IMG/VR virus record: IMGVR_UViG_3300028794_000013
Coordinates: 1 to 38,719 of that record
DNA from: a virus
Direction: 5' to 3' (one strand)
DNA length: 38,719 bases
A program made the translations under genes and the position numbers. The notes beneath the pieces are model-generated. The model saw only the letters and a program-made list of their open reading frames with translations. It was not told the DNA's origin and made no database searches. Below are positions 8,961 through 37,928 of the stretch, piece by piece (within the stretch, counting starts at the first letter, position 1; every line of letters starts with the position of its first letter).

Positions 8961-10454
8961 TCATCGGGTGAACCGCGCCCCGGAGCTTTGATTCGCAGCG
9001 TGGGGCAGTACAATCTTGGCCGGTGCATGGGTGAGGAACCTGTTCACGCCCTGGCACACCGCGTCCACCATGTCGTCGTGCGGCGCCTTCGGGAAGGACA
9101 CCATCTGTTCCTCAAGGTCCCGAAGCTTGCGAACGTGGAACACCCGGCCCACCTGGTAGTGATTGAGGGCGTCCGAGGCGCGGACCTCCTTCGACTTCGA
9201 GCCGGAACCCTTCGGGGTCACCGTGATCCTTCTGCCGTCGATCACCATGTCGTGGAGAACGCGATCCCAGAGGCCTTTCCACTGGTTATCCTCCACCAGG
9301 ATCTCCGACACCCGCGGATGGTCTACGCACAGGCTCATCAGCTTCGATCGCAGGTCGTCGGGGCCTAGCTTGACCTGCAGTGCCTCGTGCACCGTGCACC
9401 TGCGCTCGCCCTGGCTATAGCTGATCACCGCGATTCCCGTGTAGTCGGAGCTCTGCTTGATGGTCACCGCGGGATCGACGCTGATGATCCACTTGGTGTT
9501 GCTGGCGGTGCTCCCGTACCGGAAATCCTCCAACCGCCAGAAGTTCCCGCCCGCACCCATGGGATCGTTGGCGTAGTTCTTCGCGTACTGCCGGGTGTGC
9601 TCGATACCCGCGAGGAACTCCATCGACCACTTTTCGGGCCACAGAGAGCGTCTGGAGCCGTCGCCCCCGGAGATGATGGCGGGGTGATGGTGGACGTCGA
9701 AGTTCTGGTCGGTAATCCATTCAGCAGGTTCGACGCCCTTGGCATGCTTGATCATCTGATGAGCTATCGAGCCGGACATCGTCACGGTGCCGGAGTACAC
9801 CACGGACGCAAAGATGTTCAGCGGAAGGATGGCGTCCGTCAGCGTGGCCAGGCGCTTCTCCATCTGCATCAAACTGTAGTTGCTCTCGTCGGGCTCCGGG
9901 TCATCGATCAGTAGGAGGTCCGGACGTTGGTCGCCCACCTTCATGCCAAGGGTGGAGGAGTCCATACCGCGGGCTGCGAGCACGAACCCGTTGCCGCGCA
10001 CCATCAGATCCACGGTGTCAGTCTCGCTCTTGCCGCCGGAGCGCTTGGAGGGGTTGCAGAGGTCCGGGAAGTCCCGGCGCAGCAACTGGTTGTTGTCCAG
10101 CTCCCTGCGGAACGAGGCAGCGTGCTGACGCGCCTGCGTGGTGGTGTCAGCGAAGATGGCCGCAAACTTGACGTGACCGTGAGCTGCAGCCCACAGTGGA
10201 AGAATCTTCAGCCACCACGTCGACTTGCCCGTGGACCGCGGTGCGAAGAACGCGTGCCGGTTCTTCTGAGGTTCGGTCTGCTTCTCCACCCAGGACATCG
10301 CGAGGTTCGACCAGGTGTGATGACACTCCGCAAACGAGACTGACCCGTCCTGGCCCGTGATCGCGTTGCGCAGGTAGATGTACGCGAACGCCATGGGGTC
10401 CAGACGGGTCAGCTCCCTGCGGAAAGCTGGCTCATGCAGGGGAGGACTGTCCAC
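8961..10454 (-). CDS. Terminase large subunit
   Basis: A 497-aa product is predicted from GTG 10454, chosen because AAGGAGGG lies 7 nt upstream; the frame is open further upstream but only inside the small-terminase gene. Walker A is APRSTGKST at about residues 71-79, and Walker B is LLLIDD at about 180-185. The RNase H-like nuclease carries acidic residues in SVDP (about 327), LVEDNQWKG (about 388) and PHDDMVDA (about 459-464). It packages DNA through the portal and cuts concatemers. It overlaps the small subunit gene by 23 nt. Confidence 0.92.
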   Translation of the reverse strand: MDSPPLHEPAFRRELTRLDPMAFAYIYLRNAITGQDGSVSFAECHHTWSNLAMSWVEKQTEPQKNRHAFFAPRSTGKSTWWLKILPLWAAAHGHVKFAAIFADTTTQARQHAASFRRELDNNQLLRRDFPDLCNPSKRSGGKSETDTVDLMVRGNGFVLAARGMDSSTLGMKVGDQRPDLLLIDDPEPDESNYSLMQMEKRLATLTDAILPLNIFASVVYSGTVTMSGSIAHQMIKHAKGVEPAEWITDQNFDVHHHPAIISGGDGSRRSLWPEKWSMEFLAGIEHTRQYAKNYANDPMGAGGNFWRLEDFRYGSTASNTKWIISVDPAVTIKQSSDYTGIAVISYSQGERRCTVHEALQVKLGPDDLRSKLMSLCVDHPRVSEILVEDNQWKGLWDRVLHDMVIDGRRITVTPKGSGSKSKEVRASDALNHYQVGRVFHVRKLRDLEEQMVSFPKAPHDDMVDAVCQGVNRFLTHAPAKIVLPHAANQSSGARFTR

Positions 10455-10883: not shown

Positions 10884-11408
10884 TTACTCCCTGATCTCTG
10901 CGCACGCCAGCATCGGCGTGAAGCTGTATTTGACCGTTCTCAATTCGTAACCCTCAGGGCAGGTGGGTCCGGGCTCGCCCTGATCGCCCTTCTCGCCCTG
11001 GGGTCCCTGTGGTCCTACAGCTCCGTCGACTCCGTCCCTGCCGTCAGATCCGTCCTTGCCGTCAGATCCGTCAGCTCCGGGAACCCCGTCGGTGCCATCG
11101 CTCCCAGCCTTTCCGGGCGAACCGTCAGATCCGTTGGACCCGTTCGCTCCCGGAGTTCCGGGATTGCCGTCTGTTCCGTCTCTACCGTCTGTCCCTCGCT
11201 GCCCTGCAGCACCTCTTGGACCAGCAACGGGAGTACCTCCAAGGTCTTTGACCTGCTGAGCAAGAGCGGCCCTGTCCTTTCTGACCTGCGAGAGATCTTT
11301 CTGTAGATCCACTACGGCTACAGTGGTCCACCCGATGATGCCGAACACCGCGGTCGCCGAAACCCAGTAGGTGATTCCGAATCTCAGCTTGGCGTTCCGG
11401 CTTTGCAT
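10884..11408 (-). CDS. Membrane-anchored collagen-like protein
   Basis: The 174-aa product has a basic N-terminus, one transmembrane segment (about 10-32), a heptad-rich coiled coil (about 33-60) and then nearly 30 Gly-X-Y triplets rich in Asp, Ser and Ala (about 63-150). A short cysteine-containing C-terminal cap with the phrase CPEGYELRTV ends it. The layout predicts a membrane-tethered trimeric collagen-like stalk with an external cap. It sits between the lysis genes and terminase. Phage collagen-like proteins are often virion fibres, but the N-terminal anchor here points to the host membrane. Confidence 0.75.
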   Translation of the reverse strand: MQSRNAKLRFGITYWVSATAVFGIIGWTTVAVVDLQKDLSQVRKDRAALAQQVKDLGGTPVAGPRGAAGQRGTDGRDGTDGNPGTPGANGSNGSDGSPGKAGSDGTDGVPGADGSDGKDGSDGRDGVDGAVGPQGPQGEKGDQGEPGPTCPEGYELRTVKYSFTPMLACAEIRE

Positions 11409-11411
11409 GAT

Positions 11412-11687
11412 CTAACTCCCGCTCGTAAGCACGTAGAAGATGAACGCGACCAAGAGGGGGAAGAGGAAGGCTGACAGAACGATGTGCCGCATCGTCTCCT
11501 TGCCCTTCTCCAGGTCCGTCACGCGGCCTTCCAGCTTGGCGATGTCCCGGGCGGTGACGTCGTGCTCGATCGTGTATCTCTCAGTAGAGACTAGCTCACC
11601 AAGGCGTGTCTCTACTCGGGCCAGGTCACGGCGAACCAACTCAAGCTGATGCAACACGGCAGCGTTGACGTCGGGTTGGTCCGCCAT
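11412..11687 (-). CDS. Coiled-coil membrane protein, lysis-cassette associated
   Basis: The 91-aa product starts at ATG 11687 with GAGG 5 nt upstream. Residues 8-65 form charged heptads (LHQLELVRRDLARVETRLGEL onward), and residues 68-88 are one strongly hydrophobic segment ending in TSGS. This single C-terminal anchor with a cytoplasmic coiled coil resembles small proteins beside holins in actinophages. A second holin or a lysis regulator is possible but unproven. Confidence 0.6.
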   Translation of the reverse strand: MADQPDVNAAVLHQLELVRRDLARVETRLGELVSTERYTIEHDVTARDIAKLEGRVTDLEKGKETMRHIVLSAFLFPLLVAFIFYVLTSGS

Positions 11688-11694
11688 GACATCC

Positions 11695-11907
11695 TCAGAT
11701 CTTCTTTGAGAGCGACGCGGTGGAGGGGTCACCGACGCGCGTAGCGTAAGCGGATTTGATGACGCTCAGGGCTGGAGCCAGGCCTGCACTGAGGGCAGCC
11801 CACCACATGCTGATGTTGCCGATCTGAGCGAGGACGACGCCGCTGACGGCACCCTCTACGAACGCCCACGCAGCGCGCTCCAGGGTGTCCCTGAGGTGCT
11901 TGCTCAT
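11695..11907 (-). CDS. Holin (r1t/Hol_44-like)
   Basis: The 70-aa product overlaps the endolysin stop by an ATGA junction. It has a short charged N-terminus (LRDTLERAAWAFVEG), two hydrophobic segments (about 17-33 and 35-52) and a polar tail. That pattern and the adjacency to the amidase gene fit the small phage holin family of actinophages. It would form membrane lesions releasing the endolysin. Confidence 0.7.
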   Translation of the reverse strand: MSKHLRDTLERAAWAFVEGAVSGVVLAQIGNISMWWAALSAGLAPALSVIKSAYATRVGDPSTASLSKKI

Positions 11908-21537: not shown

Positions 21538-21653
21538 CTGAAGAGCACGGCAAGGCCCCTGAGGAATCGGAACCCGGCAGGCCTCACCAGGAGGAAGTCA
21601 TTATCGACTTCTGGTCCGAGGTTGCCGAGGATGATTGGAAGGAAGAGGAATGA
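21534..21653 (+). CDS. 39-aa acidic early peptide
   Basis: The product runs from GTG 21534 to TGA 21653, overlapping the genes on both sides. It is extremely acidic, with more than a third Asp/Glu and a C-terminus ending in DDWKEEE. It is supported mainly by the continuous overlap chain. Function unknown. Confidence 0.45.
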   Translation: MTEEHGKAPEESEPGRPHQEEVIIDFWSEVAEDDWKEEE

Positions 21654-21817
21654 GCACCTGGAATGATCTCACCCCGCAAGAGATGGCCGACGAGTTCGAC
21701 GCCTCCTACGAGAACCCGCGGGAGTACGCAGCCGAGGAGTTCCCCGACGGGGCACCCGCCCCGGTAGTCCTCCCCGACCACGCCGTCGAGAGAACCCCGT
21801 ACCCGCCTAGCAGCTGA
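21650..21817 (+). CDS. 55-aa early protein, last before first mini-tRNA element
   Basis: The product starts at ATG 21650 with GGAAGAGGA upstream. It is acidic and proline-rich towards the C-terminus (APAPVVLPDHAVERTPYPP). Its TGA at 21815-21817 lies exactly 8 nt before the first tRNA-like element. No family is recognised. Confidence 0.6.
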   Translation: MSTWNDLTPQEMADEFDASYENPREYAAEEFPDGAPAPVVLPDHAVERTPYPPSS

Positions 21818-21825
21818 ACACCGCA

Positions 21826-21867
21826 GCCCCGTGTGGAGAAAAGACCGGTTCGAATCCGGCGCGGGGC
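21826..21867 (+). ncRNA. Mini-tRNA-like element 1 (acceptor stem + T-arm only)
   Basis: GCCCCGT (21826-21832) pairs with GCGGGGC (21861-21867) as a 7-bp acceptor stem. ACCGG-TTCGAAT-CCGGC (21844-21860) forms a T-arm with a canonical T-loop, and one A-C mismatch at the base. The D and anticodon arms are replaced by an 11-nt linker (21833-21843). The element starts 8 nt after a stop codon and is followed by ACTCCA, not an encoded ACCA. RNase P and CCA-adding enzymes are known to act on acceptor/T-arm minihelices, so processing by them is plausible. Coding capacity as a tRNA is excluded. Confidence 0.8.
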
Positions 21868-21893
21868 ACTCCACAACCAGATAGGGGAACACC

Positions 21894-22193
21894 ATGTTCA
21901 ACAAGGGCGACAAGGTCACGCACGAGCGTCTCGGCATCGGTGAAGTGATCGAGACGGGTTATGTCCGAGTGGCTTTCAACGAGGGTCATGGGAATAACAG
22001 CTTCTACTACTTCCCTGAGTCCGAACTCAAGGCGGTTCCTAAGTATTCGATCGGCCAGAACGTGTCTCTTTACGGGCATCCGTACACAATCTTGTCGGGG
22101 GTCTTCGTTGACACGGATGGGCATCGGTCGTACGTGACGCGGGACCACGAGGGAGACTGCCACCTGGTACCGGAGACATCACTCGAAGACTGA
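21894..22193 (+). CDS. SH3-like small protein, copy 1
   Basis: The 99-aa product starts at ATG 21894 after AGGGGA. It begins FNKGDKVTHERLGIGEVIE and has the KGDKV...G.G.V....V.V.F pattern of small SH3/KOW-like beta barrels. A conserved C-terminal half follows (VFVDTDG.RSYVTRD, then GDCHLVPETS). It is a tandem paralogue of the 96-aa protein at 22269, sharing start region and 5' flank. Possible roles include RNA or protein binding. It lies between two mini-tRNA elements. Confidence 0.7.
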   Translation: MFNKGDKVTHERLGIGEVIETGYVRVAFNEGHGNNSFYYFPESELKAVPKYSIGQNVSLYGHPYTILSGVFVDTDGHRSYVTRDHEGDCHLVPETSLED

Positions 22194-22201
22194 GCACTAC
22201 C

Positions 22202-22242
22202 GCTCCGATGGTCGCAGGGGAGGTTCGACTCCTCCCCGGAGC
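22202..22242 (+). ncRNA. Mini-tRNA-like element 2
   Basis: GCTCCGA (22202-22208) pairs with CCGGAGC (22236-22242) over six base pairs with a terminal A-C mismatch. GGAGG-TTCGACT-CCTCC (22219-22235) is a perfect 5-bp T-arm with a 7-nt T-loop. A 10-nt linker (22209-22218) replaces the other arms. Compared with element 1, the third acceptor pair changes from C-G to T-A and the whole T-stem differs while staying paired, which is covariation and argues for selection on structure. It again starts 8 nt after the upstream stop. Confidence 0.8.
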
Positions 22243-22268
22243 ACTCCACAACCAGATAGGGGAACACC

Positions 22269-22559
22269 ATGTTCAACAAGGGCGACAAGGTCACGCACGA
22301 GACGTACGGCGACGGAGAGGTCATCGGCACCTACTTGTACGGAGTCCGCTTCGAGGGTGGCGACATTCGGAACGTGCACGTTTCAGAACTCAAGACGGTT
22401 CCGAAGTACTCGATCGGCCAGACTGTAGCCCTTTACGGGGGTGTTCAGCACACGGTTCTGTCGGACGTTTTCGTTGACACGGATGGGCGTCGGTCGTACG
22501 TGACGCGGGACGACTGCGGAGACTGCCACCTGGTACCGGAGACATCATTCGAAGACTGA
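22269..22559 (+). CDS. SH3-like small protein, copy 2
   Basis: The 96-aa product starts at ATG 22269. It shares FNKGDKVTHE, VPKYSIGQ, VFVDTDGRRSYVTRD and GDCHLVPETS with the 99-aa protein upstream, while the middle differs. The 5' flank from the tRNA-like element's 3' edge to the start is duplicated as well (21868-21905 versus 22243-22280). Its TGA lies 8 nt before the third mini-tRNA element. Readthrough of that TGA would continue in frame into the next gene. Confidence 0.7.
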   Translation: MFNKGDKVTHETYGDGEVIGTYLYGVRFEGGDIRNVHVSELKTVPKYSIGQTVALYGGVQHTVLSDVFVDTDGRRSYVTRDDCGDCHLVPETSFED

Positions 22560-22567
22560 GCAAGGCC

Positions 22568-22610
22568 GTCCGGGAAAAGAAGCCATCGGGGTGCGAGTCC
22601 CCGCCCGGAC
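22568..22610 (+). ncRNA. Mini-tRNA-like element 3
   Basis: GTCCGGG (22568-22574) and CCCGGAC (22604-22610) form a perfect 7-bp acceptor stem. CGGGG-TGCGAGT-CCCCG (22587-22603) is a perfect 5-bp T-arm whose loop keeps T54, C56, G57, A58 and T60 but has G at position 55. A 12-nt linker (22575-22586) joins them. It starts 8 nt after the upstream TGA. This is the best-paired of the four elements. Confidence 0.82.
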
Positions 22611-25649: not shown

Positions 25650-25832
25650 ATGAGGAAACTCGAAGTCGGAACACACGGCAAGGTCTGCTGCGATGTCCTG
25701 AAGGGTGAGGGCGTCACGGTGGTGGGGACAACAGAAGAGGGTGTTCTCCTGAAGTTTGACGGAGACGACCACGCCTGGCCGCTGGGGAATGCGGCGGTGG
25801 ACAGCGGTCGGTTCGTCACCTTCGAGGAATAG
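25650..25832 (+). CDS. 60-aa SH3-like protein
   Basis: The product starts at ATG 25650 after AGGGAG. The pattern HGKVCCDVLKGEGVTVVGTTEEGVLLKF is that of a small beta-barrel (SH3/KOW-like) domain. Its TAG at 25830-25832 is again 8 nt before a tRNA-like element, as for the two other SH3-like genes. It directly follows the structured RNA, so it may be regulated by it. Confidence 0.6.
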   Translation: MRKLEVGTHGKVCCDVLKGEGVTVVGTTEEGVLLKFDGDDHAWPLGNAAVDSGRFVTFEE

Positions 25833-25840
25833 CAAGACCA

Positions 25841-25906
25841 GCGCCGTAGTAGTGGGGATACTGCACCCGAATGTGGGAGACGTGAGGTTCGAATCCTCTC
25901 CGGCGC
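25841..25906 (+). ncRNA. tRNA-like element 4 (longer, degenerate)
   Basis: GCGCCGT (25841-25847) pairs with CCGGCGC (25900-25906) over six pairs. The T-arm TGAGG-TTCGAAT-CCTCT (25883-25899) has four pairs and a canonical loop. Between them, 35 nt can form a D-arm-like hairpin (AGTA/TACT) and a CCC/GGG hairpin with a 6-nt loop. There is no U33-like position or clear anticodon, and the total of 66 nt is short for a tRNA. It starts 8 nt after the upstream TAG. It may be an intermediate between a full tRNA and the three minimal elements. Confidence 0.65.
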
Positions 25907-28058: not shown

Positions 28059-28754
28059 ATGAAGAAGATCACGATTGCCGCGGCACTCCTCGCGGTTGCG
28101 ACCACGGTGGTCATCGCCAATGCCGACGACGCACGGAGCACGGAGTCCTACAGCACGGTGGACGACGTCTACAGCGGCACCGGTTGGAAGATCTTCACCA
28201 GCGAGAAGGTTCTCAGCATCGACCCCAGCCAGACGTACGTGGTCACCTACGCCTCAACGTCAGCTCGGTCGAAGCTGCAGCCCATGCTGGAGAAGAGCAT
28301 CACGCAGCTGCAGGCTCTCGGCATCAAGATCTACAACACGACCCAGATCGAAACCATCGCGACCACGTCGTGCGCACCGAAGAACCACATCGTCATGGGG
28401 ACGAAGTACCGTCCGGCCGGCAGCACCAAGGGCGGCGTCAGCATCGGAGACCCCTGCTACAACACGACGAACATGAGCATGTGGTCCGGCAAGGTGTGGA
28501 TGGACAGCGAGTATAAGCAGCTGGGCGGCACGTGGAGCCTGAGCGACAAGGCTTGGAAGAACGGCGTGGTCCACGAGTTCGGGCACGCTCTCGGTCTGGA
28601 CCACGCTCCGGCAGTATCACCCAAGCCGACCAACGGTGACACGCCCATCATGACTGCGCCGAACGGTGGCTTCAACACCACCAGCAAGTACGGCCAGCTC
28701 ACCAGCTGGGACATCGCCGGGTTCAAACAGCTGAAGGAGAACTTCGATGTCTGA
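28059..28754 (+). CDS. Secreted zinc metalloprotease (matrixin/snapalysin-like)
   Basis: The 231-aa product starts at ATG 28059 after AAGAGGAGA. Residues 1-22 are a Sec signal peptide (KKITIAAALLAVATTVVIANA). The catalytic site HEFGHALGLDH (172-182) is the metzincin HExxHxxGxxH, with H172, H176 and H182 as zinc ligands and E173 as catalytic base. M198 in TPIMTAP fits the Met-turn. C105 and C133 may form a disulfide. It would act outside the host membrane. A moron-like gene with its own promoter inside an otherwise coupled operon, it may alter the surface of the infected cell or aid release. Substrate unknown. Confidence 0.85.
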   Translation: MKKITIAAALLAVATTVVIANADDARSTESYSTVDDVYSGTGWKIFTSEKVLSIDPSQTYVVTYASTSARSKLQPMLEKSITQLQALGIKIYNTTQIETIATTSCAPKNHIVMGTKYRPAGSTKGGVSIGDPCYNTTNMSMWSGKVWMDSEYKQLGGTWSLSDKAWKNGVVHEFGHALGLDHAPAVSPKPTNGDTPIMTAPNGGFNTTSKYGQLTSWDIAGFKQLKENFDV

Positions 28755-37384: not shown

Positions 37385-37804
37385 CTATCTCGACCTAGCT
37401 CGATACACCCATCCGCGGGCTCGTGCCACTTCCATCAGCGCACGATCCAAGAATGGTCGGGCCCTGGTACCCGGATGATGAACAACCTTGGCGAACACCG
37501 TGCGGCCACCAACTCGGAACCTCAACGCCTGGCGACGCTTCGGACGGATCTCATGGGGCCTGGTGCCATCATGGACGTAGGGCGCGTACTCGACGTCGGT
37601 CGACACCCGGAACGATGGGCTGTCCCCTGCGAGGTTGAGCGATGAACGCACTGAAGCCCTCAGTCTGCCGGTGTCAACTGGAGTCAGAAGCTTTGCCCTG
37701 TTCGTCACCAGCTGAGACCCCACCACCAGTTCCTGCCTCGCTGCCTCCCGACTCGCCGCTCTGATCTGTGCCTGGTCGATGCGGAAGCGTGCCAACGTCC
37801 TCAA
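37385..37804 (-). CDS. HK97 gp10-like tail completion protein
   Basis: The product is 139 aa if translation begins at TTG 37804, or 136 aa from TTG 37795; no ATG is available, and a GAGGGAGG site lies beside both. It has the family signature TPVDTGRLRASV, YAPYVHDGTRPHEI and VVHHPGTRARPFLDRAL. Such proteins complete the head-tail interface or tail terminus. It overlaps the preceding gene by about 130 nt, which is unusually long. Confidence 0.8.
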   Translation of the reverse strand: MRTLARFRIDQAQIRAASREAARQELVVGSQLVTNRAKLLTPVDTGRLRASVRSSLNLAGDSPSFRVSTDVEYAPYVHDGTRPHEIRPKRRQALRFRVGGRTVFAKVVHHPGTRARPFLDRALMEVARARGWVYRARSR

Positions 37805-37928
37805 CCTCCCTCAGGTATCCGATCTTGAGGAGCCCTTCGATTCGAGAGGTCCTGTCCACGGTGCCGAGGTCGCCCTTGCGGACGTTCTCGAACGACACGA
37901 CTGCAAGAACCTGAACCTTCTTCTTCAT
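37674..37928 (-). CDS. 84-aa small head-tail region protein
   Basis: The product starts at ATG 37928 with GGAG upstream. The first 48 residues form a compact domain (VQVLAVVSFENVRKGDLGTVDRT, then the GLLKIGYLREV helix) typical of small actinophage connector-region proteins. The remaining 36 are Gly/Ser/Glu-rich and overlap the gp10-like gene in another frame, so this tail may be a by-product of overlapping coding. Confidence 0.6.
   Translation of the reverse strand: MKKKVQVLAVVSFENVRKGDLGTVDRTSRIEGLLKIGYLREVEDVGTLPHRPGTDQSGESGGSEAGTGGGVSAGDEQGKASDSS

Follow-up and report, generated by a model that had tools for sequence, protein, structure and literature searches.

Acceptor/T-arm mini-tRNAs behind the genes of an actinophage-like contig as putative RNase P punctuation marks

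Why would a phage place tRNA-like hairpins without D or anticodon arms between its genes? Three such elements, on the plus strand at 21826-21867, 22202-22242 and 22568-22610, were reported in a preliminary description of a 38.7-kb virus contig (IMG/VR record IMGVR_UViG_3300028794_000013), analysed here over its full 38,719 nt and termed the window. Inspection and a strict scan confirm all three. Across both strands, the strict scan returns only these mini-tRNAs and a longer element at 25841-25906, all on the plus strand. The elements and the genes that precede them are as follows.

21635-21817, plus strand: ORF of 60 aa, with its stop 8 nt before mini-tRNA 1
21826-21867, plus strand: mini-tRNA 1, with an acceptor stem of 7-8 bp (GCCCCGT/GCGGGGC), linker GTGGAGAAAAG and T-loop TTCGAAT
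21894-22193, plus strand: gene of 99 aa between mini-tRNAs 1 and 2, with its stop 8 nt before mini-tRNA 2
22202-22242, plus strand: mini-tRNA 2, with an acceptor stem of 6 bp (GCTCCG/CGGAGC), linker ATGGTCGCAG and T-loop TTCGACT
22269-22559, plus strand: gene of 96 aa between mini-tRNAs 2 and 3, a paralogue of 21894-22193, with its stop 8 nt before mini-tRNA 3
22568-22610, plus strand: mini-tRNA 3, with an acceptor stem of 7 bp (GTCCGGG/CCCGGAC), linker AAAAGAAGCCAT and variant T-loop TGCGAGT
25650-25832, plus strand: ORF of 60 aa, with its stop 8 nt before the longer element
25841-25906, plus strand: longer tRNA-like element, with a 6-bp acceptor stem, a T-arm with loop TTCGAAT, and a 35-nt body that contains two small hairpins

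Each mini-tRNA measures 41-43 nt, with a linker of 10-12 nt replacing the D and anticodon arms. T-stems of five nucleotides per side had been proposed for all three; this holds for mini-tRNA 3 (CGGGG/CCCCG, 7+5 bp), while mini-tRNA 2 is better paired as 6+6 bp with a 6-bp T-stem (GGGAGG/CCTCCC), and the T-stem of mini-tRNA 1 (ACCGG/CCGGC) carries an outer A·C mismatch, an 8+4 bp split being equally good. The strict scan has a Markov-1 null expectation of 0.25 elements per window, or 0.09 for linkers of ≤14 nt, and a generalised scan finds three elements in the real window, none in the reversed sequence and none in 10 Markov copies. Folding z-scores of mini-tRNAs 1, 2 and 3 are -3.1, -2.3 and -2.9, respectively; folded in isolation, mini-tRNA 1 has a lowest-energy structure other than the mini-tRNA one. 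ARAGORN and Rfam at gathering thresholds give no match in the window, and the 66-nt element at 25841-25906 scores 15.6 bits with the Rfam tRNA model (RF00005), under its 29-bit cut-off.

A covariance-model search, proposed along with the original observation, brought up homologues with strong covariation in other phages. The model R1, built from 22 diverse mini-tRNAs of other phages (set A2) and containing none from the window, recovers mini-tRNAs 1, 2 and 3 with 38.4, 58.4 and 31.4 bits and rough E-values of 3.2e-6, 3.8e-11 and 1.7e-4. Within set A2, 11 of the 12 pairs are altered on both sides, comprising all acceptor pairs and five of the six T-stem pairs, and the covariation score of 0.737, against 0.148 after shuffling and ≤0.136 after sliding, bears out the claim of an acceptor/T-arm fold whose pairing is kept by covariation. 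Descriptor-based sets favour paired elements, so the 99.6% pairing seen there is partly a product of selection; a relaxed descriptor proved too noisy and was set aside. Because these sets had been chosen by pairing, we ran a test anchored on the linker and T-loop alone, with pairing not required, in which 9.8 of 12 pairs form, compared with 7.6 ± 0.3 in permuted sequences (maximum 9.06 in 500). In a scan limited to helices of 11-13 bp, the stacked helix is 12 bp long in 93 of 135 mini-tRNAs, 11 bp in 34 and 13 bp in 8. It is thus strongly supported that the window elements are RNA-level acceptor/T-arm mini-tRNAs maintained by covariation.

The single-stranded parts are conserved in a different manner from the stems. 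In 74 of 80 short linkers (6-12 nt), GG lies at index 0-4, and the TGGTCGCAGG linker of mini-tRNA 2 is found unaltered, between other stems, in unrelated phages, mycobacteriophage SWU2 among them. Linker GG accompanies a U55 T-loop in 176 of 180 cases and a G55 T-loop in 3 of 12 (Fisher 1.8e-10); mini-tRNA 3, a G55 element, carries AGC in its linker where others have GG. The scans required a T-loop, which in the window elements reads TTCGANT or TGCGAGY, and placed no requirement on linker/T-loop coupling. Since the coupling of GG to base 55 was outside every search criterion, it points to an elbow contact like that of tRNA, in which the conserved linker GG would stand in for G18G19 of the D-loop. 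On the 3' side, the four window elements continue from base 73 with ACT, ACT, ACG and ACT (ACTCCA behind mini-tRNA 1), and none encodes CCA in place. Among 122 unique fixed-geometry mini-tRNAs, whose 3' flank was unconstrained, A73 occurs in 54%, C74 in 74% and T75 in 52%; R73-C74 is present in 123 of 135, while the last base of the RCC motif, C75, is not conserved, T or G standing in its place. Pairing between bases -1 and 73 occurs 8 times versus 17 expected, a difference confounded by the helix-extension rule of the scan.

The elements also share a position. All four in the window start exactly 8 nt past the stop codon of the preceding ORF, and 63 of 122 unique mini-tRNAs begin 5-10 nt past a stop codon, against 2.2% expected. 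They separate co-directional genes, lying 6-10 nt behind the stop and typically 20-50 nt ahead of the next start, and all elements of a genome occupy one strand (68/68 in the eight sequences checked). Within the window, the small genes 21894-22193 and 22269-22559 are the copies of a tandem duplication, and their products have a weak CarD/TRCF-like (CarD/TRCF-RID-like) N-terminus. The 3' flanks of mini-tRNAs 1 and 2 are near-identical (59/60) because the intervening gene is duplicated, while the mini-tRNAs themselves differ at ~40% of positions with pairing kept; owing to this duplication, the three window mini-tRNAs are not fully independent. The fourth element, the constant 8-nt stop distance and the tandem duplication extend the preliminary description. 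The same gene block encodes, at 28059-28754, a protein that weakly matches matrixin/reprolysin-like metalloproteases and contains the motif HEFGHALGLDH.

Two readings of this position were tried and rejected. A T-tract (≥4 T in 8 nt) follows the stem in only 2 of 135 mini-tRNAs, which therefore are not intrinsic terminators, and in-frame stops at the elements are not depleted (34 vs 40), arguing against a readthrough signal.

Named mycobacteriophages carry the elements in series. Fowlmouth has ~11, MrMiyagi ~10 and Cuke ~13, all unannotated and on the coding strand, nearly all starting 8-10 nt past an annotated CDS stop; the Cuke mini-tRNAs give no Rfam match at E 0.5. By our count, 10 of the 15 same-strand gaps of ≥75 bp in the mini-tRNA-bearing region of Cuke hold one. 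Most Fowlmouth elements agree in their linker (ACGGTTTTCG), in a TTCGATT T-loop and in the ACG of the 3' flank, with stems that nearly all differ. Compensatory swaps occur between Fowlmouth and Cuke in the same slots: GCCCAC/GTGGGC vs GCTCAC/GTGAGC, GCCCCG/CGGGGC vs GTCCCG/CGGGAC, and GGGGAG/CTCCCC vs GGTAGG/CCTACC. The element in one orthologous slot is 64 nt long in one of the two phages and 42 nt long in the other, indicating that the extra arm is dispensable.

Recurrence extends well beyond these phages. In viral contigs, one degenerate pattern (acceptor GCCCC[CG], then a gap of 10-38 nt, then a T-arm) matches at least 119 stretches, and a narrower pattern matches 117 stretches of bacterial genomes, most of them from Actinobacteria such as Streptomyces and Nonomuraea. 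Linker length has its mode at 10-12 nt, and a single locus can hold up to 11 elements with different acceptor stems. A first look at prevalence was positive for 8 of 61 genomes of Streptomyces and for none of 60 from Pseudomonadota, with a lossy filter that missed a Rhodococcus contig carrying nine mini-tRNAs. Those nine adjoin an anti-restriction gene, other inspected bacterial carriers have a phage exonuclease or an FtsK/SpoIIIE-type protein nearby, and judged by such neighbours the inspected bacterial loci look like mobile elements. Clusters in Nonomuraea (L313) and Streptomyces acidicola (L328) adjoin NUDIX and FtsK/SpoIIIE-type genes, which suggests integrative conjugative elements as carriers besides phages. 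Four mini-tRNA-like elements with the common linker ACAAGGCGTGCAC lie in a Chloroflexota MAG (L284, 1114-3210), and single mini-tRNA-like elements occur in phage contigs of 42-46% GC outside the Actinobacteria-like contigs (L131, L124, L115 and L193). The predicted mini-tRNAs belong to a class that is widespread yet unannotated, and whose carriers are mainly actinobacterial phages and further mobile elements of these bacteria.

What function would account for this combination of features? RNase P recognises a consensus of a 12-nt acceptor plus T stem, a T-loop and a 3' RCCA (PMC10731613), and it cleaves hairpins composed of acceptor stem, T-stem and T-loop at the right site (PMC11143913). The 11-13 bp helix and the T-loop agree with this consensus; of the 3' motif, R73-C74 is kept and C75 is not. 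The match in helix length, T-loop and elbow GG, the partial match of the 3' motif (R73-C74) and the position behind stops lead us to favour RNase P punctuation: the mini-tRNAs are probably punctuation marks of phage polycistronic mRNA, a role that would fit their position, strand, helix length and 3' flank. In the proposed mechanism, the mini-tRNA would fold in the polycistronic mRNA directly behind the terminating ribosome, its acceptor stem stacking on the T-arm as a single 11-13 bp helix. Host RNase P would recognise the T-loop, the ~12-bp helix and R73-C74, and cut at the 5' edge of the element, 6-10 nt past the stop codon of the upstream gene. Cleavage would split the messages, the downstream one starting with a base-paired 5' end or being trimmed further by 3' tRNA-processing enzymes. 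We infer that the elements are transcribed, that RNase P cleaves them, and that cleavage affects message stability or independent decay. A protected 5' end or a free mini-RNA would be further conceivable gains. The broader proposal, on which we are evenly divided, is a dedicated gene-punctuation system of Actinobacteria phages and mobile elements, in which minimal tRNA mimics after many genes would have RNase P cut the operon transcript; this would be mitochondria-style punctuation without tRNAs, using a two-base substitute for the D-loop and possibly engaging CCA-adding and 3'-processing enzymes as well. Counting against RNase P punctuation, C75 is not conserved, strong mini-tRNAs are missing from the window's closest relatives, and several well-studied actinophages lack the elements, an R1 search of Giles, phiC31, Patience, D29 and TM4 giving nothing better than E 0.16.

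Features that suit RNase P would also suit other tRNA-binding proteins. The T-loop, elbow and A73-C74 are contacts for the CCA-adding enzyme, EF-Tu and elbow-binding proteins, and these parts, including the coupled elbow GG, are kept while the stem sequences vary freely. The mini-tRNAs could accordingly be released as stable small RNAs that, once given CCA, act as decoys or sponges occupying tRNA-binding host proteins or those tRNA defence enzymes that attack the acceptor/T half. Such a decoy, however, needs neither a 6-10 nt spacing from the stop nor 10-13 copies, one per gene gap, across an operon, and the missing in-place CCA also speaks against it; we consider it unlikely.

That spacing is what recommends a role in place without cleavage, in which a stable stem behind the stop would protect the upstream 3' end or shape ribosome termination and restart. 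The constant 6-10 nt distance and folding z-scores near -3 are in its favour, but simple hairpins would suffice for such a task, leaving the T-loop consensus, the coupling of GG to base 55 and R73-C74 unexplained, and we rate it slightly below the decoy.

Descent from tRNA genes is raised by the window's own clade. The primase-polymerase of the window is closest to those of Woodruffvirus Streptomyces phages and some IMG/VR contigs; close relatives sought by DNA and by flanking small proteins were not found. ARAGORN reports no tRNA in the first set of relatives, and in the wider clade the Rfam tRNA model reveals canonical tRNAs, 88-124 nt forms with an enlarged anticodon arm and truncated forms of 65-69 nt. 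Greatly enlarged anticodon arms occur in Woodruffvirus-like phages at L011 24860-24962 (Xkcd426 39516-39618, unannotated and downstream of a phrog_870 gene), L022 7267-7354, G014 37782-37905 and G029 10254-10368; acceptor and T arms are intact in these tRNA-likes, as is the D arm where read, and they cannot decode normally. YDN12 carries a ~104-nt tRNA-like insertion (L013 23323-23426) at an intergenic site that lacks it in TP1604 (L012 23340-23540). At G027 11293-11822, a 0.5-kb cluster comprises five tRNAs or tRNA-likes 64-121 nt long, and in several of them the anticodon arm is truncated or enlarged. R1 finds no strong mini-tRNA among the clade relatives, its single match scoring 21 bits (in G001); the element is therefore dispensable there, and the mini-tRNAs as shrunken forms of the clade's tRNA-likes were rejected on this ground. 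As strong mini-tRNAs are missing from these relatives and numerous in unrelated phages, horizontal sharing fits better.

The clade's true tRNAs and its tRNA-likes with giant or truncated anticodon arms would make it conceivable that the mini-tRNAs are relics of tRNA genes, shrunk by deletion and retained by chance. This very improbable reading is already contradicted, as neutral decay cannot give compensation in orthologous slots, a common linker, a constant post-stop position and numerous copies in each genome. Equally improbable are sites acting at the level of DNA, whether as operators, as attachment sites or as inverted repeats associated with starts: mycobacteriophages are known to carry recurring inverted repeats between genes (SAS/ESAS, PMC3203893), but the mini-tRNA stems share no sequence while keeping their complement, the constant parts being loop, linker and 3' flank; ESAS, by contrast, have constant sequence and little hairpin support (PMC3203893), and as many as 13 sites in one genome, each with a different stem, are not attP-like; ESAS and attP readings were both rejected.

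If RNase P punctuation is correct, the mini-tRNAs would represent an overlooked class of structured RNA in many phages, including laboratory-grown mycobacteriophages in which they are unannotated, and would suggest how phages obtain separate messages from one long transcript with a host tRNA enzyme alone. They would supply RNase P, and possibly the CCA-adding enzyme, with minimal substrates of natural origin, turn RNase P punctuation of bacterial and phage mRNA into a directly testable question in M. smegmatis, and matter for phage genome annotation and engineering. The earlier statement that no named family has this form stands, with no matching Rfam family and no report in the literature searched, from which subscription papers were largely absent. 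As a kind, the tRNA mimic or RNase P substrate is already known; as far as could be found, the use of a natural acceptor/T-arm element behind many of the genes in a phage operon is new.

Compared with known systems, the mini-tRNAs resemble mycobacteriophage SAS/ESAS in being repeated intergenic elements near gene starts in the non-structural half (PMC3203893). SAS/ESAS, however, are constant 13-bp and 17-bp sequences, the ESAS being a constant 17-bp inverted repeat beside a SAS, without a covarying hairpin (PMC3203893), whereas mini-tRNA stems differ; TM4 carries ESAS yet has no mini-tRNA. With tRNA (RF00005) and armless mitochondrial tRNAs they have acceptor/T-arm features and A73 in common, but unlike tRNA they lack anticodon and D arms and are missed by ARAGORN and Rfam. 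The phi80 M3 RNA and the P1/P7 C4 antisense RNA are likewise phage-encoded, and are cleaved by host RNase P (PMC10731613, PMC11143913), as we infer for the mini-tRNAs; they are single RNAs of particular coliphages, unlike the one-per-gene-gap mini-tRNAs, and C4 has an extended stem in place of the T-loop that the mini-tRNAs possess. Synthetic minimal RNase P substrates such as AT1 and pMini3bp also combine stacked acceptor and T-stems with a T-loop and no anticodon arm (PMC11143913). These are man-made and carry RCCA (PMC11143913), whereas the mini-tRNAs are natural, have a GG linker and R73-C74 followed by U or G, and are located after stops. Mitochondrial tRNA punctuation relies on full tRNAs that also decode, whereas the mini-tRNAs have no anticodon arm; in shape and place the two are similar, both putting tRNA-shaped elements between the genes of a polycistronic RNA, where in mitochondria they serve as cut sites.
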